Positions 7,150 through 39,145 of a stretch of DNA of 64,000 nt are shown piece by piece. The DNA is from Novosphingobium sp. G106 (GTDB taxonomy: Bacteria > Pseudomonadota > Alphaproteobacteria > Sphingomonadales > Sphingomonadaceae). The translations under genes were made by a program, and so were the position numbers. Under the pieces are notes generated by a model, which searched no databases, had not been told where the DNA came from, and saw only the letters and a list, made by a program, of their open reading frames with translations. Location: NCBI RefSeq assembly GCF_019075875.1, contig NZ_JAHOOZ010000001.1, positions 2,666,001-2,730,000 on the forward strand, read 5' to 3'. Position 1 is the stretch's first letter. Every line of letters begins with the position of its first letter.

Positions 7150-7226
7150 GCGGGATCGAACACCGGTTTCGGCCGCATCACGCGACCAGAGGGCGGAATG
7201 CTGTCCCGCCCTCGTCGTGATTGAAA

Positions 7227-17745: not shown

Positions 17746-17805
17746 GGGCCCCTCTACCTTTTTGAATGCATGATAGCCGCTTGCCATTTGGCGCCGGCCA
17801 TTGAC

Positions 17806-21305: not shown

Positions 21306-22823
21306 TCAGCCCACGGCAGTCCAGGGCATGAGATCGCCGACGCCATTTGCGGGGTGACCGTTGGCGAGCTTGGCAAGCGTCTCGGTCAGCCAGGCATGGG
21401 GATTGATGGCGCTAAGCTTGCAGTTCTCGATGAGCGTGGCGATCACCGCCCAGTTGTCGCCGCCCTCGTCGGAGCCTGCGAAAAGGGCATTCTTCCGGCC
21501 CAGCGCCAGCGGCCGGATCGATCGCTCAACGGTATTGTTGTCCAGATCGATACGGCCGTCGTCCAGGAAGCGCGCGAGGCCGTCCCAGCGGGTGAGCGTG
21601 TAGCGGATCGCCTCGCCGAGCTTGCTCTTGGCGCTGACCTGGCGGTTCCGGGCCTCGAGATACTGGCGTAGGTCGTCGACGATGGCGCGGCTGCGATCGT
21701 GACGAACGGCGCGTCGCTCCTCGGCCGGTGATCCCCGTATCTCATCTTCGATGGTGTAGAGCGCGGCGACACGACGCAGGACCTCGGTGGCGACCGGGGA
21801 GCTGTCGGCCAGTTCGTAGAACTTACGGCGAGCGTGTGCCCAGCAGAAGGCCAGGCTCACTTGGCCCCGACGCCGGGCGAGTGCGGCGTAGCCGCCGTAG
21901 CCATCGACCTGCAGGATGCCGGCAAAATCGCCCAGATGAGCTTCGGGCCGCTCCGCCTTGCGATCCGCGGCATAGACATAGGCGACCATTGGCGGATCCT
22001 CGCCGCCGCACGGTCGGTCGTTGCGGGCATAAGCCCATATCTGGCCAGTTTTGGTTCGACCACGCCCCGGATCAAGCACCGGCGCCGTCGTCTCGTCGGC
22101 GAAGAGTCTTGCCGATCGTCGGAGCCGTTCGAGCACATGATCGCGCAAGGGGCGAAGGTACCAGGCCGCTCGCCCGACCCAGTCCGCCAGCGTCGATCGG
22201 TCAAGCTCAATGCCCTGCCGAGCGTAGATCTGGGCCTGCCGATATAAAGGCAGGTGATCGGCGTACTTGGACACTAGAACCTGGGCGATCAGCGCCTCGG
22301 TCGGAATGCCGCCTTCGACGATCCTGGCTGGCGCCGGAGCCTGCACGACCGCAGTCTCGCACGAACGGCAGCCGTAGCGCGGCCGGCGGGTGACCAGCAC
22401 GCGGAATGTGGTCGGCACGACATCGAGCCGCTCGGATACGTCCTCGTCAATCTGATGGAGCGCGCCGCCGCAGCAGGGGCAAGCCTTGTCCTCGACATCG
22501 ACGACCTGTTCGATCCGTTCGAGATGCGACGGGAGCGACCCACGGTTGGTTTTGCGGGGACGCTCATTGCGCTGACGCCCGCCACTGGCATCGACGGCGG
22601 CTTCGGCGCAGCCCAGCGCTGTCTCGACGTCCTCGAGCGCGAGCTGGAGCTGATCGTCATCGAGCTGCTCGGAACTACGGCCGAACCGATGGCGCTGGAA
22701 AGCCTCGATGATCGCCCTCAGGCGATCGACTTCCGCGTCGGTCTTCTCAAGCTTGCGGGCCTGTTCGAGGACGAGCGCCCGCAGCGCATCGACATCGTCT
22801 GGGAGGTCCGCTTCCGTGAGCAT
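21306..22823 (-). CDS. tnpC: IS66 transposase TnpC
   Basis: The 505-aa product has the usual IS66 order: N-terminal leucine-zipper-like helix (ALRALVLEQARKLEKTDAEV), zinc-finger region (CPCCGGAL, then YGCRSCET) and a DDE domain with VDGYGGYAAL and CWAHARRKFYEL. The C-terminal segment is KLSAINPHAWLTETLAKL. The length is normal and no frameshift is seen, so the element may be active. Confidence 0.95.
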   Translation of the reverse strand: MLTEADLPDDVDALRALVLEQARKLEKTDAEVDRLRAIIEAFQRHRFGRSSEQLDDDQLQLALEDVETALGCAEAAVDASGGRQRNERPRKTNRGSLPSHLERIEQVVDVEDKACPCCGGALHQIDEDVSERLDVVPTTFRVLVTRRPRYGCRSCETAVVQAPAPARIVEGGIPTEALIAQVLVSKYADHLPLYRQAQIYARQGIELDRSTLADWVGRAAWYLRPLRDHVLERLRRSARLFADETTAPVLDPGRGRTKTGQIWAYARNDRPCGGEDPPMVAYVYAADRKAERPEAHLGDFAGILQVDGYGGYAALARRRGQVSLAFCWAHARRKFYELADSSPVATEVLRRVAALYTIEDEIRGSPAEERRAVRHDRSRAIVDDLRQYLEARNRQVSAKSKLGEAIRYTLTRWDGLARFLDDGRIDLDNNTVERSIRPLALGRKNALFAGSDEGGDNWAVIATLIENCKLSAINPHAWLTETLAKLANGHPANGVGDLMPWTAVG

Positions 22824-22854
22824 GGAAGCAGTGAATCAGCCAGCGAACGCCCCG

Positions 22855-23211
22855 TCAACCGGCGATCTGCGGGGCCATCGGTCGGCGTCCACCATGGACC
22901 CGGCGCCAGTCGAGACCCTCGAGCAAAGCTCCGAGTTGCGCGGCCGTCAGGCGCATCACGCCGTCCTGGATGCCGGGCCACTTGAAGCCCCCCTGCTCGA
23001 GCTTCTTGGCCATCAAGCACAGGCCGGTACCGTCCCACCAGATCAGCTTGATCCGGTCTGCGCGCTTGGCCCGGAAGACGTAGATCACGCCCGAAAAGGG
23101 ATCGCCGCCGTACTCGGCACCGACCAGCGCCGCCAAGGCGTCTGGACCTTTGCGAAAATCCACGGGCCGCGTCGCAACCATTACTCGCGCACCGGCGCCG
23201 GGTCCGATCAT
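22855..23211 (-). CDS. tnpB: IS66 accessory protein TnpB (Orf2)
   Basis: The 118-aa product carries VMVATRPVDFRKGPDALAAL and VIYVFRAKRADRIKLIWWDG, then LCLMAKKLEQGGFKWP, the consensus of IS66 Orf2 proteins, which are required for transposition by an unknown mechanism. It overlaps the upstream tnpA end by four bases (ATGA), showing coupling. Confidence 0.95.
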   Translation of the reverse strand: MIGPGAGARVMVATRPVDFRKGPDALAALVGAEYGGDPFSGVIYVFRAKRADRIKLIWWDGTGLCLMAKKLEQGGFKWPGIQDGVMRLTAAQLGALLEGLDWRRVHGGRRPMAPQIAG

Positions 23212-23663
23212 CGCGTTGCCTTGAGCGCTTCGATTACCGCCGCGATTAGCCCCTTATCCGCACCGCGCGCGATCCTCACCGCCACGCCGTCGATCTCTAG
23301 CTCTACCGCACTTGGAGGCGCCGCCCGTCGCCGGCGTGGTCGCTTCGCGACCGGTGTTGCTTCGGGCGAAGGCCGTTGCTCGATCACTGCGGGAACGAAG
23401 AGAGGCGCCGGGGCTGATGAGGCTGGCAGCGGCACCCCTCGCGCCTCTATCTCCTTGCGCAACTCCCGGCGCCAGGTGAACAGCTGCGAGGGACAGATGC
23501 CATGCCGGCGAGCAACGGCGCTGATGGTCTCTTGGCCCGAATAGCTCTCCGCTACGATCGAGACCTTTACCTCTGGCGGCCAATCACGGCGCTTGCCCGC
23601 GCCGGTGAAGACCTCGAACCGCTGAACAACGCTAGTGCCAGCATCATCACATGACATCGTCAT
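23208..23663 (-). CDS. tnpA: IS66 TnpA (Orf1), helix-turn-helix protein
   Basis: The 151-aa product has an HTH near residues 30-70 (RRDWPPEVKVSIVAESYSGQ, SAVARRHGICPSQLFTWRRE) of the IS3/IS66 type and a C-terminal DGVAVRIARGADKGLIAAVI part. It is the first gene of the IS operon. Confidence 0.92.
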   Translation of the reverse strand: MTMSCDDAGTSVVQRFEVFTGAGKRRDWPPEVKVSIVAESYSGQETISAVARRHGICPSQLFTWRRELRKEIEARGVPLPASSAPAPLFVPAVIEQRPSPEATPVAKRPRRRRAAPPSAVELEIDGVAVRIARGADKGLIAAVIEALKATR

Positions 23664-25517: not shown

Positions 25518-26273
25518 TCAGCCGCCCGCAGCTTCCTTATCTATAACATTAAGCCAAGCGCTGACATGAGCAGCAACGGTTGAGGGATCTTCCAGCAATA
25601 CGAAATGCCCCGCACCGGGCAAGATCGCGAGCTTTGCGGCCTGCAATCGCTCGGCAATCTCGTATTGCATTTCGGGGGTACAGAGCTTGTCCTCGCTTCC
25701 CGCCAATACAAGACTCGGCACTGTAAGGTATCGTATCCGATCGCGACTGTCGGTACGCGATAGGCCGATCTCCGTCTGGTCGACCAGCAGCTTTGCCCCC
25801 CCGTCGACAGCCATGGTCACGATCAGATCTTGAAGCGGGCGGTCATCGAGATGCCGGGGACCGACATAGCGCGACCACATCACTTCGCGGATGTAATGGT
25901 CGATATCCCTTGCCCCCTGCACAGCTTCGTCCCGGCGATCGGCATGGAACTCCGTCCGGACATCCCTTGCATTGCTGGCGACCAAAGCCAGGCCCAAGAC
26001 GCGGTCTGACGCCAGCGCTGCCATCTCCAAGGCCACTATGCCGCCTAGCGAAAAGCCGAGCAGGGCGAACCGGGGCGGTGCTTCGGCGAGAATGCGCTCC
26101 GCCATGCTCCTGACGTCCCTCTCTCCCATTGGAACTTTCACCTCGGTGGCGCGATCCGGCAAACGATCGAGCAGAGGCGCGAAGACTCGGGCATCGCACA
26201 ACGTTCCCGGCAGCAGAAATAGTGGCACCCGCCCGATCGCTCCGTTCATCTCGGCCGGATTTTCGTCGTCCAT
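25518..26273 (-). CDS. Alpha/beta hydrolase, divergent from the bicupin gene
   Basis: The start is set at 26273 (MDDENPAEMNGAIGRVPLFL); the frame is open further upstream but without a ribosome site. The 251-aa product has LLPGTLCDARVF (oxyanion loop), nucleophile Ser75 in GFSLGG, acid Asp in AGSEDKLCTP and His in GAGHFVLLEDP. It resembles esterases or C-C bond hydrolases. Operator A (26327-26340) lies between this gene and the divergent bicupin gene, so it may be under the same LacI-type control. Confidence 0.8.
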   Translation of the reverse strand: MDDENPAEMNGAIGRVPLFLLPGTLCDARVFAPLLDRLPDRATEVKVPMGERDVRSMAERILAEAPPRFALLGFSLGGIVALEMAALASDRVLGLALVASNARDVRTEFHADRRDEAVQGARDIDHYIREVMWSRYVGPRHLDDRPLQDLIVTMAVDGGAKLLVDQTEIGLSRTDSRDRIRYLTVPSLVLAGSEDKLCTPEMQYEIAERLQAAKLAILPGAGHFVLLEDPSTVAAHVSAWLNVIDKEAAGG

Positions 26274-26326: not shown

Positions 26327-26340
26327 TGCATTCGGATGCA
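26327..26340. promoter_or_regulatory. Operator copy A, TGCATTCGGATGCA
   Basis: One base off the perfect palindrome TGCATTCGAATGCA found at three other promoters of this cluster. It is 60 bases before the bicupin start and 53 before the divergent hydrolase start. Confidence 0.75.
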
Positions 26341-26400
26341 AGGCGCGCCGTAGCGGCGCGCATCGGAGATTTGAGCGTGACCCTTTGGACGCAGGAAGCC

Positions 26401-27405
26401 ATGAACGCGCGATTGGTGCGCTATGCCGATTTGATACCATGTCGGACGGCCTTCATTGACACTAAGACGCCGGGATCGACCGAGAAGGAAAATTTCACGA
26501 TCATCGGCGCCGGTGTTTCGGAAAGCGCGGACCAGCATGTCCACATCACCGAGAAGCACGGCTTCAATATTGGTGCCGCGCGCCAGCCGTTCGGTTGCGT
26601 CAATTCGCAGCATAGCCACGATACGGCCGAAGTATTCATGATCCATTCGGGCCGCTGGCGCCTGCTGTTCGGCCCGAACTGCGAGGATGGTTCGCTGGAA
26701 ATTGGGCCGGGCGATGTATGCTCGGTACCGATCCACATGTTCCGCGGTTTCGAGAAGGTCGATGAAGGCAAAGGCATGCTGTTCACCGTGCTTGGCGAGG
26801 ACGACCCGGGCAAGGTGACCTGGGCGCCGGCAGTGTTCGAAGCGGCGGCCGATCATGGGCTCAAGCTCACGAAGGGCGGGATGTTGATCGATACGTCGGA
26901 CGGCGACTACAAGCTCAAGGAAGTTGAACTGGAAGATGGGATCGATCCCGATGCCATCGCGGAGCTAAGGACGCCGCCGCTGGAAAAGCTGCAGGAGTGC
27001 ATCGCGACCTACGACAGCGTCAGGCAGGCTCCCAATCCGCATTCGCCGCTCGCGGCCGAAGGCGTCGAGGAAGCCGGCATAATCACGCCCCGGCCGACGC
27101 GCGACGGCTTCCCGGCAGGCCCTATTTCGGGCTGGTGGCCGCAGGACTTCAACCTGCGCCTCCTGACCTTACAGACCGGCGCCTACGTCCCGCTGCACAG
27201 CCGCCAGGAAGCCGAAGTCCTCATCGTCCAAGAAGGCACACTGGAAGTCAGTTGGGCCGATGGCGCGATCGTTATGGGCGCCGGCGATACGCTGACGGTG
27301 CCGATCGGCCTTGTGCACGCCTTCCGCAACACCGCCTCCGTACCGGCCGTCGCCTTCGTGGCGCGCGGCACGGAGGACCCTGGGCTTCCCGTGTTCCAGA
27401 GCTGA
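26401..27405 (+). CDS. Bicupin protein (dioxygenase-like), putative catabolic enzyme
   Basis: AGGAAG at 26393-26398 fixes the ATG at 26401, giving 334 aa. Two cupin modules are visible: the first with His71, His73 and Glu77 in QHSHDTAEVF and a later His in PIHMFRGFE; the second with VPLHSRQEAEVLIVQEG and GLVHAFRN. Such metal-binding bicupins include gentisate- and related ring-cleaving dioxygenases and isomerases. It does not match one named enzyme clearly. Operator A upstream ties it to the LacI regulon. A bidirectional terminator follows. Confidence 0.7.
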   Translation: MNARLVRYADLIPCRTAFIDTKTPGSTEKENFTIIGAGVSESADQHVHITEKHGFNIGAARQPFGCVNSQHSHDTAEVFMIHSGRWRLLFGPNCEDGSLEIGPGDVCSVPIHMFRGFEKVDEGKGMLFTVLGEDDPGKVTWAPAVFEAAADHGLKLTKGGMLIDTSDGDYKLKEVELEDGIDPDAIAELRTPPLEKLQECIATYDSVRQAPNPHSPLAAEGVEEAGIITPRPTRDGFPAGPISGWWPQDFNLRLLTLQTGAYVPLHSRQEAEVLIVQEGTLEVSWADGAIVMGAGDTLTVPIGLVHAFRNTASVPAVAFVARGTEDPGLPVFQS

Positions 27406-27447
27406 GCGATAGAACGCCAACGGCGCGGTTGGCGCCGCATCGACAAC

Positions 27448-27490
27448 AAAAAAGGGGGCGCCGGCCCACACCGGCGCCCCTTTTCCGTTT
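27448..27490. terminator. Bidirectional terminator between bicupin and hisD-like genes
   Basis: A-run, GGGGCGCCGG (27455-27464), 6-base loop, CCGGCGCCCC (27471-27480), then TTTT. The structure serves the convergent genes on both strands. Confidence 0.88.
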
Positions 27491-27518
27491 CCGCCTGAAT
27501 CGGCAGGTTTGCGACCCG

Positions 27519-28820
27519 TCAGGCTGGCGTCTTGAGGCGATCGAAACGAATGGCGGCGGCCTTCTGGTGGCCTTCGAGACCTTCGCTGCCGCTCTGGCGA
27601 ATGGCCGGCGGCGCCACTGCGCGGATCGCGGACTCCTCGAGCCACTGATAAGTCGCGATCTTCACATAGGATCCGACCCACAGACCGCCCGTGTACTTGC
27701 CCGCGCCCATCGTCGGCAGCGTGTGGTTGGTGCCGACGTTCTTGTCCGAATAGACGACGCTGGCGTTCTCGCCGATGAACAGCGAGCCGTAGTTGCGCAG
27801 TTTCTTGGCAAAGGCGTGGGGATCGGCCGTGTGCACCTGGAGATGCTCGGCAGCGACGTAGTCGGAATAGGCGATCATCGCGGCCTCGTCCGCACAGAAG
27901 ACGATCTCGCCATAATTGGCCCAGCTTTCCGCCGCGACCTTGGCGGTGGCAAGGGTCTCTAGCTGGCGCGCGACCTCGGCCTTCGTCGCTTCGGCCAACG
28001 CGCGATCGGTGGTGATCAGGCCAACCCGCGTGCGGACGTCATGTTCCGCCTGGCCGAGAAGGTCCGTGGCGATCAGTTCGGGATTGCCCGTCGCATCGGC
28101 GACGACGAAGATCTCCGAAGGACCCGCAAGCTGGTCAATCCCGACAGGACCGAACACCTGGCGCTTGGCCTCGTTCACGAAGGCATTGCCCGGCCCCATG
28201 ATCTTGTCGACCTGCGGCACCTTCTCAGTGCCATAGGCCATGGCAGCGATCGCCTGGGCGCCGCCGATAAGGAAGATTCGGTCCGCGCCCGACAGGTGGC
28301 AGCCGGCGACCATGGCCTTGTGCGCATTGGGCGGCAGGCAAGCAACGACCTCGTCGCAGCCCGCGACCTTGCCCGGGACGATCGTCATGATCGGCGCGGA
28401 AAGGAGCGGGAAACGGCCGCCGGGCACATAGGCGCCGACGCGCTGGATCGGAATGACGCGGTGGCCCAGGTGAAGGCCCGGAATCGGCTCCACTTCCAGC
28501 GGCAGGATCGTCGAAAGCTGCGCTTCGGCGAAACGGCGGACGTTTTCGATGGCAAATTCCGTATCCGCACGTGTCTGCGGATCGAGCAGATCCAGGGCCT
28601 GCTGCCTTTCGGCGGGCGTGACTTCGAACTGTTCCAAGTTCGAATTGTCGAACTTGCTCGCATATTCGCGCACGGCCGCATCGCCGCGTTCGCGCACATC
28701 TTTCAGGATGCCCGTGACGAGGCCGGCAACCTGGTTATTGTCAGCGTGCTGATCCTGAACCGGGGTCTTGATGTATTCGAGCTTGCCTTCGAGGGCCGGC
28801 GGGGCGGGAACGCGGGTCAT
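27519..28820 (-). CDS. Histidinol dehydrogenase-like oxidoreductase 1 (HisD/HpsN family)
   Basis: The start at 28820 follows GAAGGATT. The 433-aa product carries all HisD family hallmarks: [26 protein letters not shown] (zinc ligands Gln and His), AAEHLQV (catalytic Glu-His), GTNHTLPT and LEGHQKAA. HisD relatives use NAD to oxidise an alcohol in two steps to a carboxylate. In a catabolic cluster without other his genes, this is more likely a relative such as sulfopropanediol 3-dehydrogenase than biosynthetic HisD. A second paralogue lies at 36406-37743. Operator B separates it from divergent lacI. Confidence 0.85.
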
Positions 28821-28870
28821 GTTTGAATCCTTCAGCTGGCGTGCTGCCGGTGCAGATTCGTGCGCCATAA

Positions 28871-28884
28871 TGCATTCGAATGCA
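28871..28884. promoter_or_regulatory. Operator copy B, perfect palindrome TGCATTCGAATGCA
   Basis: It lies between the divergent hisD-like gene (start 28820) and lacI-family gene (start 28978), placed to control both and give autoregulation. Confidence 0.85.
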
Positions 28885-28977
28885 ACTGTCATTCAAAACT
28901 CGCTGGACGTATGCACCTGTTTCGTATTCTTGCGGGATGTATAGAATGAATGCGCGAGTGTGCCTGTCAGGGAAGCC

Positions 28978-30003
28978 ATGGATCAGCCTGTAAAATCGAC
29001 CCAGCCGCTGCGTCGGGCGACGTCCTATGACGTCGCGCGCGCCGCGGGGGTCTCGCAATCCGCCGTATCCCGCTGCTTCGCACCTGGCGGCAGCATCGCG
29101 CCGGCCACGCGCAAGCGCATCGAAAAAGTGGCGGCAGAGCTCGGCTATCGGCCGAATGCGCTGGCACAGGGCCTGATATCGGGGCGGACCAACATGGTCG
29201 CCGTGCTGATCTCCAGCGCGACCAATCTCTATTACCCGGAAGTGTTGGAAGAACTGACCCGCCGGCTGACCGAGCGCGACACCCGCGTGCTGCTGTTTTC
29301 GCTGCGCTCCGAAGGCGAGGTAGACGACGTGCTGGACCAGGTCTGGCGGCATAGCGTCGACGGCGTCATATCTGCTGCGCGCCTGTCCGATGCGCAGATC
29401 CAGCTGTTCGAGGATCACCGAGTGCCTCTGGTCCTCTACAACCGCATGCCGGCCAAGGCACGTGCCGCCAGCGTCTGCTGCGATTCCGCTGCGGGCGAAA
29501 CCGAACTGGTCGAGCGGTTGCTGGCAGCGGGGCATCGCGATTTCGGCATCATCGCCGGCCCTGAGGATTCCTACGTCGGCGAGGAGCGGCGGCGAGCGGC
29601 GCTCGATCGCCTGGCCGCCGCGGGTTTCGACAAGGTGCCCGTCGTCCGCGGCGATTTCAGCTATACCGGCGGCGGCGAAGGACTGCGCCAGTTGATGGCG
29701 GACAAATCAGGCCTCGATGCGATCATCTGCGGCAACGACCAGATGGCAATCGGCGCGATCGACGCCGCGCGCGAGGACTTCAAGCTGACAATACCCGACG
29801 ACCTCTCGATCGTCGGCTTCGACGGCACGGCGCCTGCCAGCTGGTCAAGCTACCGCGTGACCTCGATCCGCCAACCCGTGCGCCGCATGACCGAAGCGGC
29901 GGTGTCGATGCTGATCGAACGCATCGAGAATGACACGGTATCGGCCGAGCGCCGGCTTTTCGCAGGCGAACTGGTCGCCGGAGCATCCGCACGAATCGGC
30001 TGA
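28978..30003 (+). CDS. LacI-family transcriptional regulator, predicted master of the cluster
   Basis: The start at 28978 follows CAGGGAAGCC; a GTG in frame at 28960 is less likely. The 341-aa product has the N-terminal LacI helix-turn-helix (SYDVARAAGVSQSAVSRCF, residues 16-34), the hinge PNALAQGL and a periplasmic-binding-like effector domain (VLISSATNLYYPEVLEEL to the C-terminus). The palindrome TGCATTCGAATGCA with a central CG and dyad symmetry is the style of LacI operators and flanks this gene. The effector is unknown; presumably it is the pathway substrate or an intermediate. Confidence 0.9.
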   Translation: MDQPVKSTQPLRRATSYDVARAAGVSQSAVSRCFAPGGSIAPATRKRIEKVAAELGYRPNALAQGLISGRTNMVAVLISSATNLYYPEVLEELTRRLTERDTRVLLFSLRSEGEVDDVLDQVWRHSVDGVISAARLSDAQIQLFEDHRVPLVLYNRMPAKARAASVCCDSAAGETELVERLLAAGHRDFGIIAGPEDSYVGEERRRAALDRLAAAGFDKVPVVRGDFSYTGGGEGLRQLMADKSGLDAIICGNDQMAIGAIDAAREDFKLTIPDDLSIVGFDGTAPASWSSYRVTSIRQPVRRMTEAAVSMLIERIENDTVSAERRLFAGELVAGASARIG

Positions 30004-30011
30004 CAACGCAG

Positions 30012-30025
30012 CGCATTCGGAAGCA
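30012..30025. promoter_or_regulatory. Degenerate operator-like site, CGCATTCGGAAGCA
   Basis: Three bases differ from the palindrome consensus. It lies 8 bases after the lacI-type stop and about 160 bases before operator D, and could be an auxiliary half-strength site for looping; equally it may be chance. Confidence 0.3.
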
Positions 30026-30182
30026 AAAATATCACACTTCGATCGGCTGCGGATGGCTGAAGCGCCCTGCCCCACCCTTCATTTGGCATCGCCACGCAGC
30101 GGAATTTTCTCTACTATTTACACCTATATCAGCATCTTAATGGATTGCCCGCACGCGCGAACCAACTGCCTCAATGGAGGAA

Positions 30183-30196
30183 TGCATCCGAATGCA
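30183..30196. promoter_or_regulatory. Operator copy D, TGCATCCGAATGCA
   Basis: One mismatch from the perfect palindrome, 93 bases before the TonB receptor start and downstream of lacI. Confidence 0.75.
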
Positions 30197-30288
30197 TTTT
30201 GTCATGGACGCGTCATGCGCGACTTGGTAGCGTACCCCTTACCGAAAAGGCCAAGAGGGCCGCACCGGCAGGGAAAAAGGGTTACCGC

Positions 30289-32607
30289 ATGAGCAATCGT
30301 TTCTGGTTCGGCAGCGTGTCGGCACTGACCATGGCATTGTGCACTTCGGCTGCTATGGCTCAGGATACGTCAGCCGCCGCTCCTGACGATACCTCCGCGT
30401 CGACCGGCATGGCCGACATCGTCGTTACCGCCCAGCGCCGCAGCGAACGCCTCCAGGACGTGCCGCTTTCCGTGACCGCGCTCAGCGGCGACGATCTTTC
30501 CCGCAGTCGCATTACCGATGCCAGCCGCCTGCAGCTCCTGTCGCCGGGCCTGACCTGGGGCCAGCAGGGCGCCGACTCCTTCCCCGCCATCCGCGGCGTG
30601 CGTACCCAGCTCGTCAGCGCGCAGAGCGATCCGGTCATCGGCTTCTACCTCGACGGCGTCTACCAGAGCCGCACCCAGCAGCAGTCGATCCCGCTGTTCG
30701 ACATCGCCCGCGTCGAGGTCCAGCGCGGCCCGCAGGGCACGCTCTATGGCCGCAACACTTTTGGTGGCAACATCTCGGTCGTCAGCCAGCTACCGACCAA
30801 GAACTTCGAGGCCGGCTTCAACGCCGCTGCCGGCAGCTACAACCTGCGCCAGTTCGATGCCTTCGTGAACCTGCCCGTGACCGATACGCTGCAAGTCCGC
30901 GTCGCCGGCTACCACAGCGAGCATGACGGCTACGTCCGCTCGACCACCAATCCCGATATTCGCTTCAACGACGAGAACCAGTCGGCCCTGCGCGCCAGCC
31001 TGCTGTTTACTCCGACCGAGCAGTTCGAGGTCCAGGTCCACGCCGGCTATTGGGAACGCAACGATGCCGGCGGCGGCGCGTATGGCTACAAGACCGTCGG
31101 CACGCTGATCAATCCGGCGACTGGCACGCGCTCAATCAACGGTCAGCCCTATGCGGTGAACCCGTCGGTCCGCAACGGCACGCGCTTCGTCAACGGCGTC
31201 GACATCGGCGTGCCGGTGACCGGCGACGAATACAACGTGCAGTGGGACTACCAGCCGACCGAATATCTGCGCGAGAAGTACGTCAACGGCCAGCTCTCCT
31301 ACGATTTCGGCGGCGTCGCGATCAAGTCGATCACCGGCTATACCAAGTTCCGCTCGCGCCGCAGCGGCGACCTCGACCAGTCGTCGGTGGTCTTCCCTGC
31401 CCCTGGCGTAGCCAGCGCTTTCGCGGGCTCGGGCATCCAGCAACCCGACACCGACGTGAAGACCTTCAGCCAGGAACTACAGCTGTCTTCGACCGACAAG
31501 AGCTCGCCGCTCCAGTGGATCGCCGGTGCCTATTACTTCCACGATATGCTCAACGAGCTCTACAGCCAGGTCTATACCGCGCCGACGGCGACCGCGCTTG
31601 GCACCCGCTCGCGTACGCAGATCGATACCAAGGCCTATGCGCTCTATGGCCAGGCGACCTATTCGCTGATCCCCGATACCCTGCGCCTGACCGCCGGCGT
31701 CCGCTATTCGGACGAGACCAAGAACTACGTGATCACCAACTTCACGGCGCCGGTCGGCACGTTCAACTTCAATACCCAGACTGCCGCACGCGGTGCGGGC
31801 CAGGCGAAGTTCAATAAGGTGACCTGGCGTGCTGGCGCGGAATTCAATGTCACGCGCGACAACATGATCTACGCATCGGTCTCGACCGGTTTCGAGTCGG
31901 GTGGCATCAACAACAATTCGAGCAACGCGCTGATCCCGCAGAGCTACGCGCCGCAGACCGTGACCGCCTATGAGCTGGGTTCGAAGAACAAGTTCGCCGA
32001 TGGCCGCGTGATCCTCAACGCCAGCCTGTTCTACAACAAGTACAAGGATCTGCAGATCACGATCCTCGATCCGCTGACGAACCTTTCGTACTACGCCAGC
32101 GCCGGCGCGGCGCGCAGCTATGGTGCCGAGTTCGAACTGAAGACGCTGCCGGTCGACGGCCTGCATGTCGATCTGACGGCGGCGCTGCTCAATGCCAAGT
32201 TCACCAAGTACGTTCGCCCGAACCCGTTCGGCGACACCACGACGGTCAACCTGGCCGGCAAGCGCGTGCCGACCTCGCCGACGCTGAAGACCACCGCGAG
32301 CATCTCCTACGACGCCGACCTGGGCAGCGCCGGCACGATCTCGCCGCGCGTCGACGTACTCTATTCGACCAAGTACTACTCGACCGACTACAACACCGTG
32401 CTCGACCTTCAGAAGTCCTATGCCACGGTCGATGCAAGCCTGCGCTATACGCCGGAATCGGGCGCCTTCTATCTTGAAGGCTTCGTGAACAATCTGACCG
32501 ACAAGGCCGTTATCTATTCGGCGACGCTCGGCGGTGCCGCCCGCGTCCAGGAATCGTTCAGCCCGCCCCGCGTCTGGGGCGTGCGCCTGGGCGCCAAGCT
32601 GCGCTAA
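30289..32607 (+). CDS. TonB-dependent receptor of the LacI regulon
   Basis: The ATG at 30289 (AAAAAGGG upstream) gives a signal peptide ending near AAMAQ (residue 25) and 772 aa in all. The TonB box DIVVTAQRR (residues 43-51) and the plug (LQDVPLSVTALSGDDLSRSR; GVYQSRTQQQSIPLFDIARV; QRGPQGTLYGRNTFGG) are followed by a 22-strand barrel type C-terminus ending GVRLGAKLR. It should import a substrate over the outer membrane using TonB energy. The MFS gene begins 39 bases downstream, so the two form an uptake operon under operator D. Confidence 0.92.
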   Translation: MSNRFWFGSVSALTMALCTSAAMAQDTSAAAPDDTSASTGMADIVVTAQRRSERLQDVPLSVTALSGDDLSRSRITDASRLQLLSPGLTWGQQGADSFPAIRGVRTQLVSAQSDPVIGFYLDGVYQSRTQQQSIPLFDIARVEVQRGPQGTLYGRNTFGGNISVVSQLPTKNFEAGFNAAAGSYNLRQFDAFVNLPVTDTLQVRVAGYHSEHDGYVRSTTNPDIRFNDENQSALRASLLFTPTEQFEVQVHAGYWERNDAGGGAYGYKTVGTLINPATGTRSINGQPYAVNPSVRNGTRFVNGVDIGVPVTGDEYNVQWDYQPTEYLREKYVNGQLSYDFGGVAIKSITGYTKFRSRRSGDLDQSSVVFPAPGVASAFAGSGIQQPDTDVKTFSQELQLSSTDKSSPLQWIAGAYYFHDMLNELYSQVYTAPTATALGTRSRTQIDTKAYALYGQATYSLIPDTLRLTAGVRYSDETKNYVITNFTAPVGTFNFNTQTAARGAGQAKFNKVTWRAGAEFNVTRDNMIYASVSTGFESGGINNNSSNALIPQSYAPQTVTAYELGSKNKFADGRVILNASLFYNKYKDLQITILDPLTNLSYYASAGAARSYGAEFELKTLPVDGLHVDLTAALLNAKFTKYVRPNPFGDTTTVNLAGKRVPTSPTLKTTASISYDADLGSAGTISPRVDVLYSTKYYSTDYNTVLDLQKSYATVDASLRYTPESGAFYLEGFVNNLTDKAVIYSATLGGAARVQESFSPPRVWGVRLGAKLR

Positions 32608-32646
32608 GCCTGCGGATCGAATGCAGGGGCTGGGAAAGGACCGAAT

Positions 32647-33990
32647 ATGAAGCCTGCCCAGCCCCCGATACCTGATCCGACCGATACGATCGATCAAGCG
32701 CTGGCCGTCGGCACCGACGGCGGCGCGCTGCTCTTTGACGACGCCGCCCTCCCCCCTACCGAGCCGGCGTCGCAGGAAGGCCACTATCCCCCTCTCTCCC
32801 GGGGAATAGTGGCCTTCGCCTTTCTGATGGTCGCGGAATTCTTCTACAGCTGGGCGTGGAATTCGGTCGACGTGCTGCGGCCCTATATTCGCGAGAGCCT
32901 GGGCCTGACCTTGACCGAGGCCGGTTCGGGCTATTCGGCGCAGGGCGCCGGCGCGTTGATCGGCGCCGTGGTCATGGGCCAGCTCGCCGACCGCTTCGGC
33001 CGCCGCAAGATGCTCGCTGTGGTCATGATCGGCTATGGCCTGACGCTCGCCGCGGGCACGCTCGTCACCAGCTACGTCGCCTATCTCGCCGATCGCTTCG
33101 TGCTCGGCCTGTTCATGGGCGGCATCTTCCCGATCGTCGTCGGCATCTATGTCGGCCTGTTTGCCAGCAATGTCGCCGGACGGCTGGCGAGCCTGATCAA
33201 TGCCATCTTCGGCTGCGCGGTGACGCTTCTGGGCGTGGCCAGCGGCGCCGTGGGCGGGGACTGGAAATGGCTGCTCTGGATCGGCGGAATTCCGCCCGTG
33301 CTGCTGGCGGGCTTCGCCTTCGTGCTGATCCCGAAGACTGCCGACGCGCGCGGCCCCGCCTCGGGCAGCAAGCCGCGAGCGCCCGTGCTCGACCTCTTCG
33401 CCCGCGGCGTGCGCCTGCAGACTCTGGCGCTGGCCGCGCTGATGGGCCTCAACTTCTTCGGCTATCAGGCCTTCAGCGGCTGGCTGACGACCTACCTGCG
33501 CGATGTCCGCCATCTGAGCCCGACGATCCTGGGCGATCTCGTAGCCTGGCAGTTCGCCGCGAACATTCTCGGCGGCTTCTTCTGGGGTTGGGCCGGCGAC
33601 AAGTTCGGCCGCCGGTTCAACGCGCTGGGCTTCCTCGGTGCGGCGATCGCCATCGTCGTCTACCTCAATCTCGGCGCCAATGTCGTCGTGCTGGGATCGG
33701 TCGGCGCACTCTATGGTTTCATGCTGTCCTCGAGCGTGGTCTGGGGACCCTGGCTGACCGAACTCTACCCGCCGCACCTCAAGTCGACCGCCGCCTCGAT
33801 CTTCAACTGGGGCCGCATCGTCAGCTTCTTCGCGCCGCTGGTCACCGGGTCGCTCGCCACGAGCTTCGGCCTTGGTGCGACTATGGGAGTGGCGAGTGTA
33901 ACCTTCGTCATCGCCGGCCTCATCTGGCTGGCCTTGCCCGAAACGCACGCGAACCCGCTGCTGCCCGGCCGCCGCCTGAATACGCGCTGA
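32647..33990 (+). CDS. MFS transporter, inner-membrane partner of the TonB receptor
   Basis: GGAAAGGA precedes the ATG. The 447-aa product has a long hydrophilic N-terminus (to about residue 55), then about 12 membrane helices with the MFS signature GQLADRFGRRKML (helix 2-3 loop), the equivalent GWAGDKFGRRFN in the second half and PETHANPLLPG at the end. It resembles the aromatic acid/sugar-acid porter groups (AAHS or related). Cluster position suggests uptake of the compound brought in by the receptor; the substrate is unknown. Confidence 0.88.
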   Translation: MKPAQPPIPDPTDTIDQALAVGTDGGALLFDDAALPPTEPASQEGHYPPLSRGIVAFAFLMVAEFFYSWAWNSVDVLRPYIRESLGLTLTEAGSGYSAQGAGALIGAVVMGQLADRFGRRKMLAVVMIGYGLTLAAGTLVTSYVAYLADRFVLGLFMGGIFPIVVGIYVGLFASNVAGRLASLINAIFGCAVTLLGVASGAVGGDWKWLLWIGGIPPVLLAGFAFVLIPKTADARGPASGSKPRAPVLDLFARGVRLQTLALAALMGLNFFGYQAFSGWLTTYLRDVRHLSPTILGDLVAWQFAANILGGFFWGWAGDKFGRRFNALGFLGAAIAIVVYLNLGANVVVLGSVGALYGFMLSSSVVWGPWLTELYPPHLKSTAASIFNWGRIVSFFAPLVTGSLATSFGLGATMGVASVTFVIAGLIWLALPETHANPLLPGRRLNTR

Positions 33991-33995
33991 TCTGC

Positions 33996-34879
33996 TCAGA
34001 CCTGCGGCGGGACCGAGCTTTCTACCGAATGGTTGAGCGATATCCCCGCCGAGGCCGCGATCAGCGCACCGATCGCGAGGCACTGGATCAACGCCAGCCG
34101 CTCTCCCAGGATCGCCAGCGCGGCAAAGGCCCCGATTGCCGGCTCCAGGCTGACGACCACGCCGAAGACATGGCGCGGGAGCCGTTTTAGCGCAATCATC
34201 TCGAGCGAAAACGGGATGGCGCTCGCCAGAACGGCAACCACAGCGCCGGTGGCAAGGGTCGCCGGCTCAGCCAGGCGAGTACCGGCCGTCACGAAGCCCA
34301 CGGGAACCGCGATCAGCGCTGCGACGCAAATGCCGAGGCAGACCACCTGGCTTTCGGGCAGCACCTCGCTCGCGCGCTTGCCGGTGACGATGTAGAGTGC
34401 CCAGGCCAGCGCCGCGGCCAGGACGAACGCCAGCCCGACGGGATCGATCGCCGCATGGCTCGACCCGGGTAAAGTAGGCTACCCACCCCAAGCGCGGCGC
34501 AGCCAATCCACAGGTAGTCCGCCTTGCGAACTGAATAGTAGATCGCCACGCCCAACGGCCCGAGGAACTCGATCGCTATGGCAATGCCCAGCGGCAGCGT
34601 CCGCAAAGCCATGTAGAAACACAGGTTCATGCAGGCGATCGTCGCGCCATAGGGCACGACGACGGCCCAGCCGGCGCGGCCGATCCGCCAGCGCCAGGGT
34701 CGGAATACCGCGATCAGCAGCAGCGCCGAAAGCCCGAGCCGGAGCGCATTGGCGCCAGAAGCTCCGGCCAACGGAAACAGGCCTTTGGCGAAGGAATTGC
34801 CAACGCAGACCGAGACCATGGCCGCGATCAACGGGGCAAGGCCGCCGAGCAAGCCCAGCCGCCCGGCGCGAACGGTCAT
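33996..34879 (-). pseudogene. EamA/RhtA-type transporter, broken by a 1-base deletion
   Basis: The first part (from ATG 34879, overlapping the aldolase stop as ATGA) gives membrane helices through GVGSLLYPG. The remainder (LPESQVVCLGICVAALIAVP to PPQV*) is in another frame. Adding one base at 34464-34466 (CCCGGG context) makes a continuous EamA protein with a LAFVLAAALAWALYIVTGKR middle and the second EamA repeat FGVVVSLEPAIGAFAALAIL. RhtA-like proteins export amino or organic acids. It is the last gene of the hisD2-SDR-aldolase operon. Sequencing error is possible. Confidence 0.7.
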
Positions 34880-35631
34880 CCCTTGACCTGCGCGACCAGC
34901 GCGGCGGCGCCTGCCAGCATGAAGCCGTGATCTGAGCCGAGCAGGAACAGGCTAGCGCCCTTCTCGGCCCAGGTCGGCACGTCTGCGATCCGCGCTACGA
35001 ACATGCCGGTACGCCGGCCATGGCGCATACCGGCGGCGCAAACCTTCTCGACCGCCGCGACCACTTGCGGATCGTCCTGATTGGTGACGCCGTAAGCGAC
35101 GGTGAGATCGACCCGGCCCACAAACAGCGCATCGACGCCGTCCACGCCGGCGATCTCGTCGATCGCGTCGATGGCTTCGGGATCCTCGATCTGGAGCACG
35201 ACCATGGTGCGCGCCGCACTGGCGGACATATGTTCGACCATGGGCTTGGTCGTGTAGGAAGCCGCCCGCGACGACCCGGCATAGCCGCGTCCGCCGGCGC
35301 CGTAGTGGCTGAGCCGAACCGCTGCGCGCGCTTCGTCGGCCGAGCGGACATGCGGGATGACCACCCCGGTTGCACCGCAATCGAGCGCGTTGAGGATATG
35401 CTCGGGCGCGGCCGAAGGGACGCGCACCAGCACGTCCATGCCTGCGGCGCGCGCGGCCATGATGCAGGCGTCGATCGCGGTCCGATCAAAGGGCGCATGT
35501 TCGGCATCCAGACACAGGCAATCGAGTTCGCTAAGCCCCAGCACTTCGACGACGATCGGCGAAGGCGTCTTCACGAAAGTGCCGACGATGGTTTCACCCT
35601 CAGCCAGCCGCTGTTTCAGGTTGCCGCTCAT
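34876..35631 (-). CDS. HpcH/HpaI family aldolase
   Basis: The start at 35631 overlaps the SDR stop (ATGA). The 251-aa product matches the class II pyruvate aldolase HpcH/HpaI at each catalytic position I recall from E. coli HpaI: His45, Arg70, Glu149 and Asp175 (QIEDPEAID and VGRVDLTVAYG). These enzymes split 4-hydroxy-2-oxo acids to pyruvate plus an aldehyde. In this operon it would do the carbon-carbon cleavage after oxidation by HisD-like and SDR enzymes. The specific substrate is unknown. Confidence 0.9.
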   Translation of the reverse strand: MSGNLKQRLAEGETIVGTFVKTPSPIVVEVLGLSELDCLCLDAEHAPFDRTAIDACIMAARAAGMDVLVRVPSAAPEHILNALDCGATGVVIPHVRSADEARAAVRLSHYGAGGRGYAGSSRAASYTTKPMVEHMSASAARTMVVLQIEDPEAIDAIDEIAGVDGVDALFVGRVDLTVAYGVTNQDDPQVVAAVEKVCAAGMRHGRRTGMFVARIADVPTWAEKGASLFLLGSDHGFMLAGAAALVAQVKG

Positions 35632-36404
35632 TCCGCCGTCCATCCTCCGTCGACCACCAGCGAGGTGCCGGTCATCAGGCTCGATGCGTCTGAGGCAAGG
35701 AACACCGCCGCCCCCATCAGATCCTCGACCTGGCCGATGCGCCCGAGCTTGATCTTGTCGAGCACGCTTTGCTTGAACGCCGTATCTTCGAAAAACGGCT
35801 TCGTCATCGGCGTTTCGATGAATGTCGGCGCGATCGTGTTCGACCGGATGCCATGCGGCGCGAGATCCAAGGCAAAGCTTTTGCTCATGCCTTCGAGCGC
35901 CCATTTCGAGGCGCAATAGAGCGACCGGTTGGGTCCACCCACATGCCCCATCTGGCTGCCGATGTGGATCAGGCTGCCACCACTCACCTTTTCGACGAGC
36001 ATTTTCTGGACGCAGGCCTGGGCGACGAAGAAGGCGCTTTTGACATTGAGCCCGAGAACCGCATCGTAGTCGGCCTCGCTCACCTCCGTCATCGGCTTCG
36101 GACGATTGGTTCCCGCGTTGTTGATCAGGACGTGGAAAGCCGGCCGGTCAGTGAAGAAGCGCGAAACAGCCGCGAGGTCGGAGACATCGAGCGCAGCAGC
36201 TTCGGCCTGCCCCCCGGCCCGCCGTATCGCTTCGGCTACCGACGCGATCTCGTCACTGGAGCGCGCTGCCAGAGTAACCGCAGCGCCAGCCTCCGCCAAG
36301 GCCGCGGCCATCGCCCCGCCAATCCCGCGTCCGGCACCGGTCACGAGAGCCCGCCGCCCGTCGAGGCGAAAGCTGGGCGTTCGCGGCAACGGGACGGCGG
36401 ACAT
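35628..36404 (-). CDS. Short-chain dehydrogenase/reductase
   Basis: The 258-aa product has the SDR cofactor motif TGAGRGIG (residues 22-29), NNAG, and catalytic Ser150, Tyr163 and Lys167 (GSQMGHVGGPNRSLYCASK). It ends with GTSLVVDGGW, the usual FabG-like C-terminus. It starts one base after the hisD-like gene's stop, overlaps the aldolase start, and belongs to the same operon under operator E. Likely an NAD(P)-dependent alcohol or sugar-acid dehydrogenase. Confidence 0.9.
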   Translation of the reverse strand: MSAVPLPRTPSFRLDGRRALVTGAGRGIGGAMAAALAEAGAAVTLAARSSDEIASVAEAIRRAGGQAEAAALDVSDLAAVSRFFTDRPAFHVLINNAGTNRPKPMTEVSEADYDAVLGLNVKSAFFVAQACVQKMLVEKVSGGSLIHIGSQMGHVGGPNRSLYCASKWALEGMSKSFALDLAPHGIRSNTIAPTFIETPMTKPFFEDTAFKQSVLDKIKLGRIGQVEDLMGAAVFLASDASSLMTGTSLVVDGGWTAE

Positions 36405-36405
36405 G

Positions 36406-37743
36406 TCAGGCGTCGACGGCGGTCAGGTCGGACGGCGTTGCCGTGCCCGCATAGGGCACCTCGCGGTGGCCATAGCGGCGCACGCGGATGTTCGCCTGCT
36501 CGCCATGGCCAGCGAAGCCCTCGAGCCCACAGAGGCGGCTGCAATATTCGCCGATCAGCGCTGAGGCGTCGTCGGTCAGGACCTTCTGGTAAGTGCAGGT
36601 CTTGATGAACTTGCCGACCCAGAGCCCGCCCGTATAGCGCGCGGCCTTCTTGGTAGGTAGCGTGTGGTTGGTGCCAATCACTTTGTCGCCGAACGACACG
36701 TTGGTCCGTGCGCCGAGGAACAGCGCGCCGTAGTTGGTCATGTTCTTGAGGAAATAGTCGGGATCGGCGGTCATGACCTGGACGTGCTCGCTGGAGATCT
36801 CGTCGGCGATGCGCACCATCTCGGCATCGTCCTCGGCGACGATGACTTCGCCATAGGCCTCCCAGGCCTTGCGGGCGATGTCGGCGGTGGGCAACACGTA
36901 GAGCAGCTTCTCGATCCAGGCGATCGTCTCGTGCGCCAGCTTTTCGGACGTGGTCAGCAGGATCGCCGGGCTGTCGGGGCCATGTTCGGCCTGGCCGAGC
37001 AGGTCGGTCGCAGCCAGTTCGCCATCGCAGCCGATCTCGTCGGCGATCACCAGGGTTTCGGTCGGGCCGGCAAACAGGTCGATGCCGACACGGCCGAACA
37101 GCTGGCGCTTGGCTTCGGCGACAAAGGCGTTGCCCGGTCCGACGAGGATGTCGACCGGGGCGATCGACTGGGTGCCGAGGCCCATCGCGGCAACCGCCTG
37201 GATGCCGCCCAGGCAATAGATCTCGTCGGCGCCGGCCATCGCCTGCGCCGCGACGATCGCGGGAGCCGGCTTGCCACCGAACGGCGGGGCGCAGGTCACG
37301 ACGCGCGGCACGCCGGCGACCTTGGCGGTGATCACCGACATGTGCGCGGAGGCCAGCAGCGGATACTTGCCGCCCGGAACGTAGCAACCCGCGGCATTAA
37401 GCGGCAGGTTCTTGTGGCCGAGGATCACGCCCGGCAAGGTCTCGACCTCGACATCGGTGATGCTGGCGCGCTGGATCTGCGCGAAATTGCGGACCTGCGC
37501 CTGGGCGAACTCTATATCCTTGATGTCCTGCGGCGAGAGCGTGTCGATGCAGGCCTGGATCTCCGCCGGAGTAAGCCGGTAGGAAGCGCGGTCCCACTTG
37601 TCGAACTTGATCGACAGCTCGCGCACCGCGTCGTCGCCGCGCTTTTCGATATCGGCGAGGATGCCTTCGACGGTGTCGCGGACCTGGCGATTGTTCTCAG
37701 CCTTGGCTTCTGCGGTTGCGCCGCGCTTCAGATAGATGGCCAT
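36406..37743 (-). CDS. Histidinol dehydrogenase-like oxidoreductase 2 (HpsN-like)
   Basis: The start at 37743 follows CGGAGAG. The 445-aa product reads [74 protein letters not shown] and GTNHTLPT. It recalls sulfopropanediol 3-dehydrogenase (HpsN) more than HisD, and is clearly diverged from the paralogue at 27519. Both would perform alcohol-to-acid oxidation. No sulfo-lyase is present, so a sulfonate substrate is not proven. It heads a four-gene operon; operator E lies 12 bases before its ATG, overlapping the start region. Confidence 0.87.
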
Positions 37744-37755
37744 GGGACTCTCCGA

Positions 37756-37769
37756 TGCATTCGAATGCA
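37756..37769. promoter_or_regulatory. Operator copy E, perfect palindrome TGCATTCGAATGCA
   Basis: It sits directly upstream of the hisD2 start (12 bases), where binding would block RNA polymerase or initiation. Confidence 0.85.
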
Positions 37770-37896
37770 AAACTGCTAGATCATGTCGGCACGGAAGGCA
37801 AGGCGCTTGCAAGAGGCCGGCGAAATCGGGGATGCGGCAGCTTGGTGCCTGGAAGGTGTGGCATTGGCTGCCACCTTCGAGGCACGCAAAAACCGC

Positions 37897-39060
37897 TCAC
37901 TCGGCCGCGTCGGCGGCCTTCTGCATGTCTGCAAGCTTGATCTGTACGAGCATCGACAGTTCGTCGTAGACGATCCATTCGTCGACGATCTTGCCATCGA
38001 TCACATGATAATGGGTGACGCCCATGACGAACAGGTGATGCCCGGTCGGCGCACCGAGCGAGCCGTAGCCCATGTGGTGCCCGTCCATCGTCCAGCGCAC
38101 GGCATATTTGACGCCGCCCTCCTCGCTTTCGACCGAGGAAATGTGCTGCGGAACGTAAGCACAGTCGGGGATCAGCGCGACGAGCTTGATTGTCTGGTGC
38201 AGCACCGCGGCAATACCGTAGAGTTCGCGCATCAGCGGCCCGTGCCACTGCACGGTCGGCGCGTAGATTTCGTGGATCCGGCCGAACATGCGCTTGTTGA
38301 AGATGTGATGGAGATCGCGCAGGAACTGGGCTTCACCGTCGTTGTGCGCGATCGACACGTCGGCTTCGGTCTCAGGCGGGTACTGGCCGAGCAGGCGACG
38401 GTTTTCGGCCAAATCGACGACCTTCTCGCCGGTCTCGAACTTCTTGCGCGCGATGTCGGCGGCATAGCCATGCGGGTCGATCCCGAGCTGGATCAGAGGC
38501 CCCATGTTGTCGCGGACAATCCACTCCTTGTAGATCTTGTTCTCCAGGATCATGCAGTCGGCAACGGTTCGCGTTATGAAGCTGCGGCCGGTCGGCTTGC
38601 CGTACATACCGTATTCGGTGTGGCGACCGGAGCCGTTGGTCATGTGGCTGGTGTAGAAGCCGTCGACATCGTTGCCGTTCCAGATCACCTGAATGGCGCG
38701 ACCGCGTCGATCGGGGAATTCCGATAATCGCTGGATCGTATCGCGAATGTGGGTTTCGCGATCATACATCGTGCCCAGCGTCGTGTAGGCGACGCAATTA
38801 TGCGTGTAGTGGGTGTAGATCAGGCCAACGTCTCGCTCGTCCCAGATCTTGTGGGTGCAGCGAACGATGTAATCGACGATATCGGTGTAGCAATCGTCGA
38901 AACCGCGCATGGACTGGACGCGAGGACGGTTTTCGGGAACGAGCTCCTGAAAATCGCGGCGCTCGACCTGTAGTACCGCGCGCGGATCTTCCGACACGCG
39001 GGCAGCGAGCTTGGTTCCCGTTGCCGGGTCCTTCGGCGCCTTGCTATCATCCTCGCTCAT
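37897..39060 (-). CDS. Double SnoaL/NTF2-like domain protein in the LacI regulon
   Basis: GAGGAGG precedes the ATG at 39060. The 387-aa product has two SnoaL-like halves: MRGFDDCYTDIVDYIVRCTH then YTHYTHNCVAYTTLGTMYDR with GMYGKPTGRSFITRTVADCM, and RDLHHIFNKRMFGRIHEIYA then YAVRWTMDGHHMGYGSLGAP. Many His and Asp residues could be catalytic or bind metal. SnoaL folds include dehydratases and cyclases. Operator F lies 72 bases upstream. A lyase or isomerase step in the same pathway is likely but not shown. Confidence 0.7.
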   Translation of the reverse strand: MSEDDSKAPKDPATGTKLAARVSEDPRAVLQVERRDFQELVPENRPRVQSMRGFDDCYTDIVDYIVRCTHKIWDERDVGLIYTHYTHNCVAYTTLGTMYDRETHIRDTIQRLSEFPDRRGRAIQVIWNGNDVDGFYTSHMTNGSGRHTEYGMYGKPTGRSFITRTVADCMILENKIYKEWIVRDNMGPLIQLGIDPHGYAADIARKKFETGEKVVDLAENRRLLGQYPPETEADVSIAHNDGEAQFLRDLHHIFNKRMFGRIHEIYAPTVQWHGPLMRELYGIAAVLHQTIKLVALIPDCAYVPQHISSVESEEGGVKYAVRWTMDGHHMGYGSLGAPTGHHLFVMGVTHYHVIDGKIVDEWIVYDELSMLVQIKLADMQKAADAAE

Positions 39061-39131
39061 AAATCCTCCTCGCTCGGCTACGCACCTGGTTCCAGCTTGA
39101 GGATGCCCATCAAAAAGCAAACACCCTCTTT

Positions 39132-39145
39132 TGCATTCGAATGCA
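39132..39145. promoter_or_regulatory. Operator copy F, perfect palindrome TGCATTCGAATGCA
   Basis: It lies 72 bases before the double SnoaL gene start and is the right-hand edge of the regulon. Confidence 0.85.

Follow-up and report, generated by a model that had tools for sequence, protein, structure and literature searches.

A predicted LacI-type regulon over a recurring catabolic gene cassette in Novosphingobium sp. G106

The window considered here is a stretch of 64,000 nucleotides from Novosphingobium sp. G106 (contig NZ_JAHOOZ010000001.1, positions 2,666,001 to 2,730,000), and its subject is a gene cluster that holds a LacI-family regulator gene and five copies of a 14-bp palindrome, TGCATTCGAATGCA. 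The cluster very probably forms a local LacI-type regulon, in which the encoded regulator would control five promoters through this palindrome for the catabolism of a polyhydroxylated compound. Its regulatory logic would be ordinary for the LacI family, and the gene set under it is unusual. The evidence is computational and comprises the sites, their specificity, and the conservation of site, recognition helix and genes in related loci. Three of the five copies are exact and two carry a single mismatch:

26327..26340, no strand: operator copy 1, TGCATTCGGATGCA, one mismatch; between the divergent hydrolase and bicupin genes
28871..28884, no strand: operator copy 2, no mismatches; between the divergent HisD1 and LacI genes
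30183..30196, no strand: operator copy 3, TGCATCCGAATGCA, one mismatch; upstream of the TonB receptor gene
37756..37769, no strand: operator copy 4, no mismatches; upstream of the HisD2 gene
39132..39145, no strand: operator copy 5, no mismatches; upstream of the double SnoaL gene

A first-pass annotation of the bare sequence had placed five copies at these positions, three perfect and two with one mismatch, upstream of five transcription units, and the window scan agrees with it. Measured from the center of the site to start codons chosen by the analyst, copy 1 stands about 67 bp from the bicupin and about 61 bp from the divergent hydrolase, copy 2 about 58 bp from HisD1 and about 100 bp from LacI, copy 3 about 99 bp from the TonB receptor, copy 4 about 20 bp from HisD2 and copy 5 about 79 bp from the double SnoaL gene; each site is upstream of a gene. 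The further statement that the motif occurs nowhere else in the window at such quality also stands, as the scan with up to three mismatches returned eight matches and the three beyond the five each have three mismatches. Shuffled sequences gave a mean of 3.66 matches at this threshold, so only copies with no or one mismatch are informative within the window.

The operator was also searched for in the whole genome (7,227,927 bases in five contigs). No copy with one mismatch or fewer occurs outside the cluster in the whole 7.23-Mb genome, and at up to two mismatches there are 11 places, namely the five copies and six with exactly two mismatches, against three for a reversed-pattern control. The wider core TGCATNCGNATGCA, which is TGCATTCGAATGCA with its two variable positions freed, has five exact matches, all within the cluster, and five further matches with one mismatch elsewhere (control, one). 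The random density that would have spoken against the annotated motif was therefore not seen, and the palindrome is specific for its predicted target genes genome-wide, as in a local regulon of the LacI family. Within the genus, the bicupin gene is present in nine of 99 genomes, and of the 20 exact palindromes found in these 99 genomes, 18 share a contig with the bicupin gene and are no more than 13 kb from it, in eight of the nine. An exact site is present in 8/9 bicupin-positive versus 2/90 bicupin-negative genomes (Fisher p 2e-9); the ninth bicupin genome, G479, has no site and no LacI gene in the 15 kb read. As a separate observation, the exact operator of G399, a genome without a bicupin match, is at position 7178 of locus L186, upstream of what the analyst reads as a transketolase-like gene.

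A genome scan based on the bicupin yielded at least 80 loci from Sphingomonas, Sphingobium, Novosphingobium, Devosia, Halomonas, Grimontia, Woeseiaceae and others, and both the neighboring genes and the palindrome recur across them; the bicupin is also found on plasmid NZ_CP039697 of Novosphingobium sp. EMRT-2 and in Novosphingobium sp. FSW06-99. In a set of 92 loci (1.76 Mb; 80 bicupin loci and 12 plasmid stretches), TGCATTCGAATGCA occurs 33 times exactly and 133 times with at most one mismatch; 300 control palindromes made by permuting the half-site averaged 0 and 0.19 (maxima 0 and 5). At least one such near-exact site is present in 59 of the 92 loci. For 99 of the 133 near-exact sites, a gene assigned to the cluster starts no more than 250 bp downstream. 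Another 33 have no such gene nearby; 31 of them lie close to the beginning of Devosia-type loci, in one of which (L058) an ABC binding-protein gene starts at 706. The site between hydrolase and bicupin, at the position of copy 1, recurs in many sphingomonad and Devosia loci. Spacing, counted up to 160 bp from the start codon, is conserved, at 90–107 bp for the TonB receptor (seven loci), 46–74 bp for HisD1 and 40–127 bp for the bicupin; for HisD2 it is 20–106 bp (median 29, 11 sites). The site varies by lineage in that the bases flanking the central CG change, while TGCAT, CG and ATGCA are mostly kept.

The regulator encoded beside these sites carries PF00356 and PF13377, both above cut-off, that is, a LacI helix-turn-helix and a periplasmic-binding-type effector domain. 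It is one of four LacI-type proteins in its own genome, and in two of the other three, those read, the recognition helix differs. When six further plasmid stretches are added to give 98 loci, a LacI match is present in 85, of which 57 hold a site at one mismatch or fewer, and the core TGCATNCGNATGCA with at most one mismatch is present in 75/85 loci with LacI compared with 4/13 loci without a LacI match. The recognition helix reads GVSQSAVSR in 82 of the 93 LacI matches of the loci; the remaining 11 include two with GVSESAVSR, one with GVSQSMVSR and eight without a helix match, five of these eight being pieces shorter than 220 residues. Outside the locus set, the Klebsiella LacI has GVSQSAVSR, and those of Ensifer and Priestia have GVSQSTVSR. 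A tree was used for the LacI rows of the clusters only, since the rows for the paralogs of the G106 genome, with branch lengths of 8–10, were probably translated in the wrong frame. In it the window protein falls within a supported group of sphingomonad sequences and the Devosia and roseobacter proteins within another, so that operator and helix outlast considerable LacI divergence. The palindrome is upstream of both the regulator and its predicted targets and is conserved in orthologous loci, ten of the 85 LacI loci excepted, as is usual for a regulon of this type.

The comparison across sphingomonads that the first-pass annotation had proposed thus finds site, regulator and genes recurring, and the regulon is not limited to sphingomonads: the operator core is found in Devosia, in Woeseia-type Gammaproteobacteria, in one Ensifer, in one Pantoea and on a Klebsiella plasmid, with weaker forms in Deinococcus and Priestia. 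In a test of 18 gaps in plasmid records, picked after earlier matches had been seen, sites were present near the LacI gene or its neighbors in Klebsiella michiganensis (exact), Ensifer NER9 (three exact), Pantoea, Martelella and Deinococcus, and in a more divergent form in Priestia. Roseibium (L165) has LacI without a good site in this test, and the Vibrio, Thioclava and Salinivibrio clusters, which have no LacI, have no site, the best match in the gap tested having five mismatches. The Klebsiella record (L163) is a plasmid typed as conjugative, in which the exact operator at 3048 is between the LacI and HisD genes and the gene order is a compact HisD-SDR-MFS-hydrolase-aldolase-cupin run (SDR, short-chain dehydrogenase); the cassette may move between classes on such plasmids.

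The main competing explanation for the sites is that another protein, a global or unrelated regulator, binds the palindrome and that the cluster LacI is a bystander with a different operator. Several observations weigh against the proposed regulon, and those on LacI loci without the core, on loci with a site but no LacI match and on stray exact sites would also fit this alternative. Ten of the 85 LacI loci (L102-L106, L109, L086, L097, L165 and L166) have no TGCATNCGNATGCA with at most one mismatch, and the six Grimontia-type loci among them (L102-L106 and L109) have the cluster and a LacI with GVSQSAVSR, yet no near-exact core, so helix and site are not always together, which is the chief finding against a strict rule; perhaps the site was changed or lost there. 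The four loci that hold the site without a LacI match (L043, L059, L081 and L108) may have the LacI gene beyond the end of the locus or contig. Two exact sites in the genus, in G399 and G414, are outside such clusters. A site at one mismatch or fewer is absent from 33 of the 92 loci, of which some have two- or three-mismatch forms and others none at all. Of 397 family genomes, 13 have at least three near-exact sites by eye, and since seven of these have no double-SnoaL match (six do), the number of near-exact copies is by itself a less specific marker than that of exact copies. In addition, the loci were all fetched through one protein, the bicupin, and many are close kin rather than independent; the LacI sequences split into at least two lineages, leaving a single ancestral regulator unsupported; and a promoter scan gave two promoter-like matches compared with 2.6 in shuffles, none at an operator. 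A different binder is nevertheless improbable, given that the sites of the G106 genome are confined to the cluster, that the core follows LacI across loci, and that the recognition helix is nearly invariant. A palindrome with a central CG is moreover of the LacI-operator type. The cluster LacI, which the first-pass annotation had named as the obvious binder, is therefore still the most plausible one, as its co-occurrence with helix and site over many genera suggests.

In the regulon as proposed, the LacI protein (28978–30003) most likely binds TGCATTCGAATGCA, or the wider core TGCATNCGNATGCA, at the five promoters; it would repress the uptake and catabolic genes as well as its own, and would release the promoters upon binding the substrate or an early intermediate. 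The genes concerned are the following, identified through Pfam and NCBIfam scans of ten cluster proteins, a set to which the EamA-like gene does not belong; Pfam agrees with the earlier gene identities for all ten.

25518..26273, minus strand: alpha/beta hydrolase (Pfam; start codon chosen by the analyst)
26401..27405, plus strand: bicupin (Pfam, alignments, AlphaFold2 (AF2) model, bicupin fold)
27455..27480, minus strand: terminator-like hairpin between the convergent bicupin and HisD1 genes (consensus scan only; such sites are rarer than in shuffles)
27519..28820, minus strand: HisD1, HpsN-like dehydrogenase with motif GRFPL (Pfam PF00815, PDB relatives, motif)
28978..30003, plus strand: LacI-family regulator with helix GVSQSAVSR (Pfam; an alternative GTG start at 28960 is possible)
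30289..32607, plus strand: TonB-dependent receptor (Pfam)
32647..33990, plus strand: MFS transporter (Pfam; closest NCBIfam model aromatic acid/H+ symport, below cut-off)
33996..34879, minus strand: EamA-like transporter gene, in two frames (open reading frames; the EamA name is from the first-pass annotation)
34876..35628, minus strand: HpcH/HpaI aldolase (Pfam, PDB relatives)
35628..36404, minus strand: short-chain dehydrogenase (Pfam)
36406..37743, minus strand: HisD2, HpsN-like dehydrogenase with motif GKYPL (Pfam, PDB relatives, motif)
37897..39060, minus strand: double SnoaL-like protein with two NTF2-fold domains (Pfam, AF2 model, SnoaL-type structures)

The EamA-like gene is split over the overlapping frames 34313–34879 and 33996–34364, which is either a frameshift or a sequencing error. 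About 2 kb to the left of the cluster there is an IS66-type transposase-like gene set (21306–23663, minus strand), read from open reading frames only.

The suggestion that these genes encode an undescribed catabolic pathway is well supported in the form of a recurring catabolic cassette, found in Pseudomonadota, Deinococcota and Bacillota and composed of the bicupin, the alpha/beta hydrolase, an HpcH or RraA aldolase, HpsN-like dehydrogenases, an SDR, the double SnoaL protein and exchangeable transporters. Of the 98 loci, all selected through the bicupin, 82 are 16 kb or longer; among these 82 the hydrolase is present in 74, HisD-like proteins in 69, SnoaL in 72, LacI in 75, the SDR in 62, an amidase in 41, MetE-like proteins in 33 and OtnK in five; the references ABH_25, HPCH_30 and SDR_33 contain frame errors, so some of these counts may be too low. 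Relatives of the EMRT-2 amidase (36–42% identity) occur at several places in the G106 genome, none within the cluster. An aldolase is present in 68 of the 82 loci, HpcH only in 33, RraA only in 34 and both in one, and this exchange suggests one retro-aldol step on a 4-hydroxy-2-oxo acid. MetE-like genes are found in 7/8 loci without the hydrolase versus 26/74 with it, counts that represent few independent lineages. In four plasmid records (L124, L126, L162 and L164, covering Vibrio, Salinivibrio, Thioclava and Ensifer), the bicupin-aldolase-hydrolase trio adjoins otnK and an OtnC-type aldolase gene with no HisD match; otnI is annotated in L124 and L162, and a third record has a TIM-barrel protein in the otnI position, the OtnI reference, from L126, having been guessed from position. 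A fragment from genus genome G407 likewise holds LacI, an exact site, the bicupin, the aldolase, the hydrolase and 62 residues of OtnK. The adjoining OtnK and OtnC point to a four-carbon keto acid as a possible product of the trio. The fifth OtnK match, L094, has HisD.

The individual enzymes indicate which kinds of reaction may be expected. The N-terminal cupin of the bicupin has H71, H73 and E77 invariant in alignments, and its AF2 model (mean pLDDT 88.3) matches bicupin structures; the fold search did not separate dioxygenase, decarboxylase and storage-protein bicupins, and the sequence profile search was similarly mixed, with quercetinase first. The double SnoaL model (mean pLDDT 87.9) matches SnoaL/NTF2-type structures, a fold that by itself fixes no reaction. 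For the hydrolase the closest NCBIfam models are PcaDC and BioH, both far under cut-off. The ABC binding protein of one Devosia locus has only weak sugar-type PDB relatives. Together the enzymes would form one catabolic pathway for a polyhydroxylated compound, which would enter through the TonB receptor and MFS transporter here and, in Devosia and roseobacters, through an ABC transporter of the sugar type. The bicupin and the alpha/beta hydrolase would open or hydrolyze the core, the HpsN-like enzymes probably oxidize a CH2OH group beside a C-OH to a carboxylate, and the HpcH aldolase (RraA in other lineages) would make the final cut to pyruvate and a short keto acid. No described pathway with this gene set was found among the titles and abstract openings of the open-access literature searched, in which the mycosporine entries likewise gave no bacterial catabolic cluster.

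As to the compound itself, a tentative and on balance doubtful proposal, made on chemical grounds, is that the regulon serves the breakdown of gadusol- or mycosporine-type sunscreens, whose 2-methoxy-1,3-diketone rings carry a tertiary C-OH and a CH2OH group. The bicupin would then give a methyl keto ester by cleaving the methoxy-enol bond, the BioH-like hydrolase (or the MetE-like protein) would remove the methyl group, and the HpcH or RraA aldolase would release pyruvate and 3-oxo-tetronate, the latter passing to OtnK and OtnC; alternatively, HisD would oxidize the CH2OH group and the aldolase would then give an oxaloacetate-type acid. The amidase of many relatives might free the amino acid arm. 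Hints in this direction are the OtnK/OtnC clusters without HisD, the exchange of HpcH for RraA and the MetE-like skew, as well as some hosts from coral, alga, leaves and lichen, which were not weighed against other habitats.

A pathway for ascorbate or a close derivative appears less likely still. It would have the bicupin as an enediol dioxygenase, the hydrolase as an oxalyl esterase and the HpsN-like enzymes converting threonate to tartrate, and it would fit the tetronate Otn genes that adjoin the trio in the Vibrio, Salinivibrio, Thioclava and Ensifer records; cupin dioxygenases are also known to act on reductones. The known ascorbate route, however, uses other enzymes, and no threonate 2-dehydrogenase is named in the listed features of the four Otn loci, for which the gene table is incomplete. 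As the aldolase, whether HpcH or RraA, is left without a role, ascorbate is kept as a weak rival. The tetronate pathway of OtnK, OtnC and OtnI resembles the present system in that otnK and the aldolase gene adjoin the trio in the four plasmid records, with a fragment in G407; it differs in that no Otn gene is among the ten profile-scanned window proteins, the rest of the genome being outside that search.

The HisD-like enzymes bear on a further alternative. By sequence, their closest solved relatives are DHPS dehydrogenases (8v35 for HisD2 and 8wwe for HisD1). The HpsN zinc and catalytic residues (Glu318, His319, Gln248, His251, Asp352 and His411), checked by sequence pattern, are retained in most relatives: the Glu-His pattern in 47/47 HisD1 and 52/61 HisD2 proteins, QAEH in 47/47 and 57/61, a ten-residue zinc/catalytic pattern in 47/47 and 60/61, and the C-terminal GH in 43/47 and 59/61. 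According to the available text of PMC11382572, the diagnostic HpsN motif GRY[AS]H ends in the sulfonate-recognizing His126. At this position HisD1 reads GRFPL and HisD2 GKYPL, and the histidine is present in none of 108 relatives with a readable motif (one further was unreadable). A pathway for the sulfonate DHPS or another organosulfur compound, favored by the closest PDB relatives and the retained zinc and catalytic patterns, is thus rejected as very unlikely on these motifs, with no sulfonate lyase among the scanned cluster genes. Both proteins pass the NCBIfam hisD cut-off, a model that does not separate them, and the G106 genome has three PF00815 genes; since the third, elsewhere, scores higher (544 bits compared with 457 and 444), the cluster pair are probably not biosynthetic HisD. 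The motif GRASY read for this third gene is out of frame and was disregarded. Histidine biosynthesis was accordingly rejected as a function, the cluster genes not being the only HisD of the genome. HisD1 and HisD2 may rather be four-electron alcohol dehydrogenases for another small polyhydroxylated substrate.

In comparing the cluster to known systems, the hpsRNOUPsuyAB cluster as described in the available text of PMC11382572 shares a HisD-fold zinc dehydrogenase (HpsN/DHPS-3-dehydrogenase), a catabolic cluster, an MFS transporter and a regulator; the window cluster, however, does not have the key motif histidine, adds the bicupin, SnoaL and aldolase, and has no sulfolactate lyase among its scanned genes. 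The LacI local regulons of PMC4052901, in the text available, similarly have palindromic operators beside the controlled genes, frequent autoregulation and sugar-type transport, and the terms histidinol, hisd, cupin, snoal, sphingomon and novosphingobium are all absent from the main text of that article. In the open-access literature searched for the operator strings, no occurrence was found apart from a 12-base piece in one chicken promoter paper. If the proposed regulon is correct, one operator string would serve as a tracer for a catabolic cassette carried on chromosomes and plasmids of three or more phyla, and would help to define which genes belong to the pathway, and the regulator would be a sensor for the pathway substrate.

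The cassette may also provide a setting for an enzyme that has already been crystallized. Swit_5035 of Rhizorhabdus wittichii RW1 (L114, pSWIT02 17225–17980) matches 6r62 over its length (544 bits) and by sequence is the crystallized hydroxyketoacid aldolase SwHKA (PDB 6r62), for which the available text of PMC10099721 gives no natural pathway. On pSWIT02 it is between hydrolase and bicupin genes, the latter of the same family as the window bicupin. SwHKA is about 30% identical to the window HpcH protein over 208 residues, and the RW1 stretch differs from the window cluster in having no HisD, SnoaL or LacI match. The natural role of SwHKA, an aldolase cited for synthetic uses, may belong to this kind of pathway, which, if the regulon is as proposed, could give the enzyme a physiological context.

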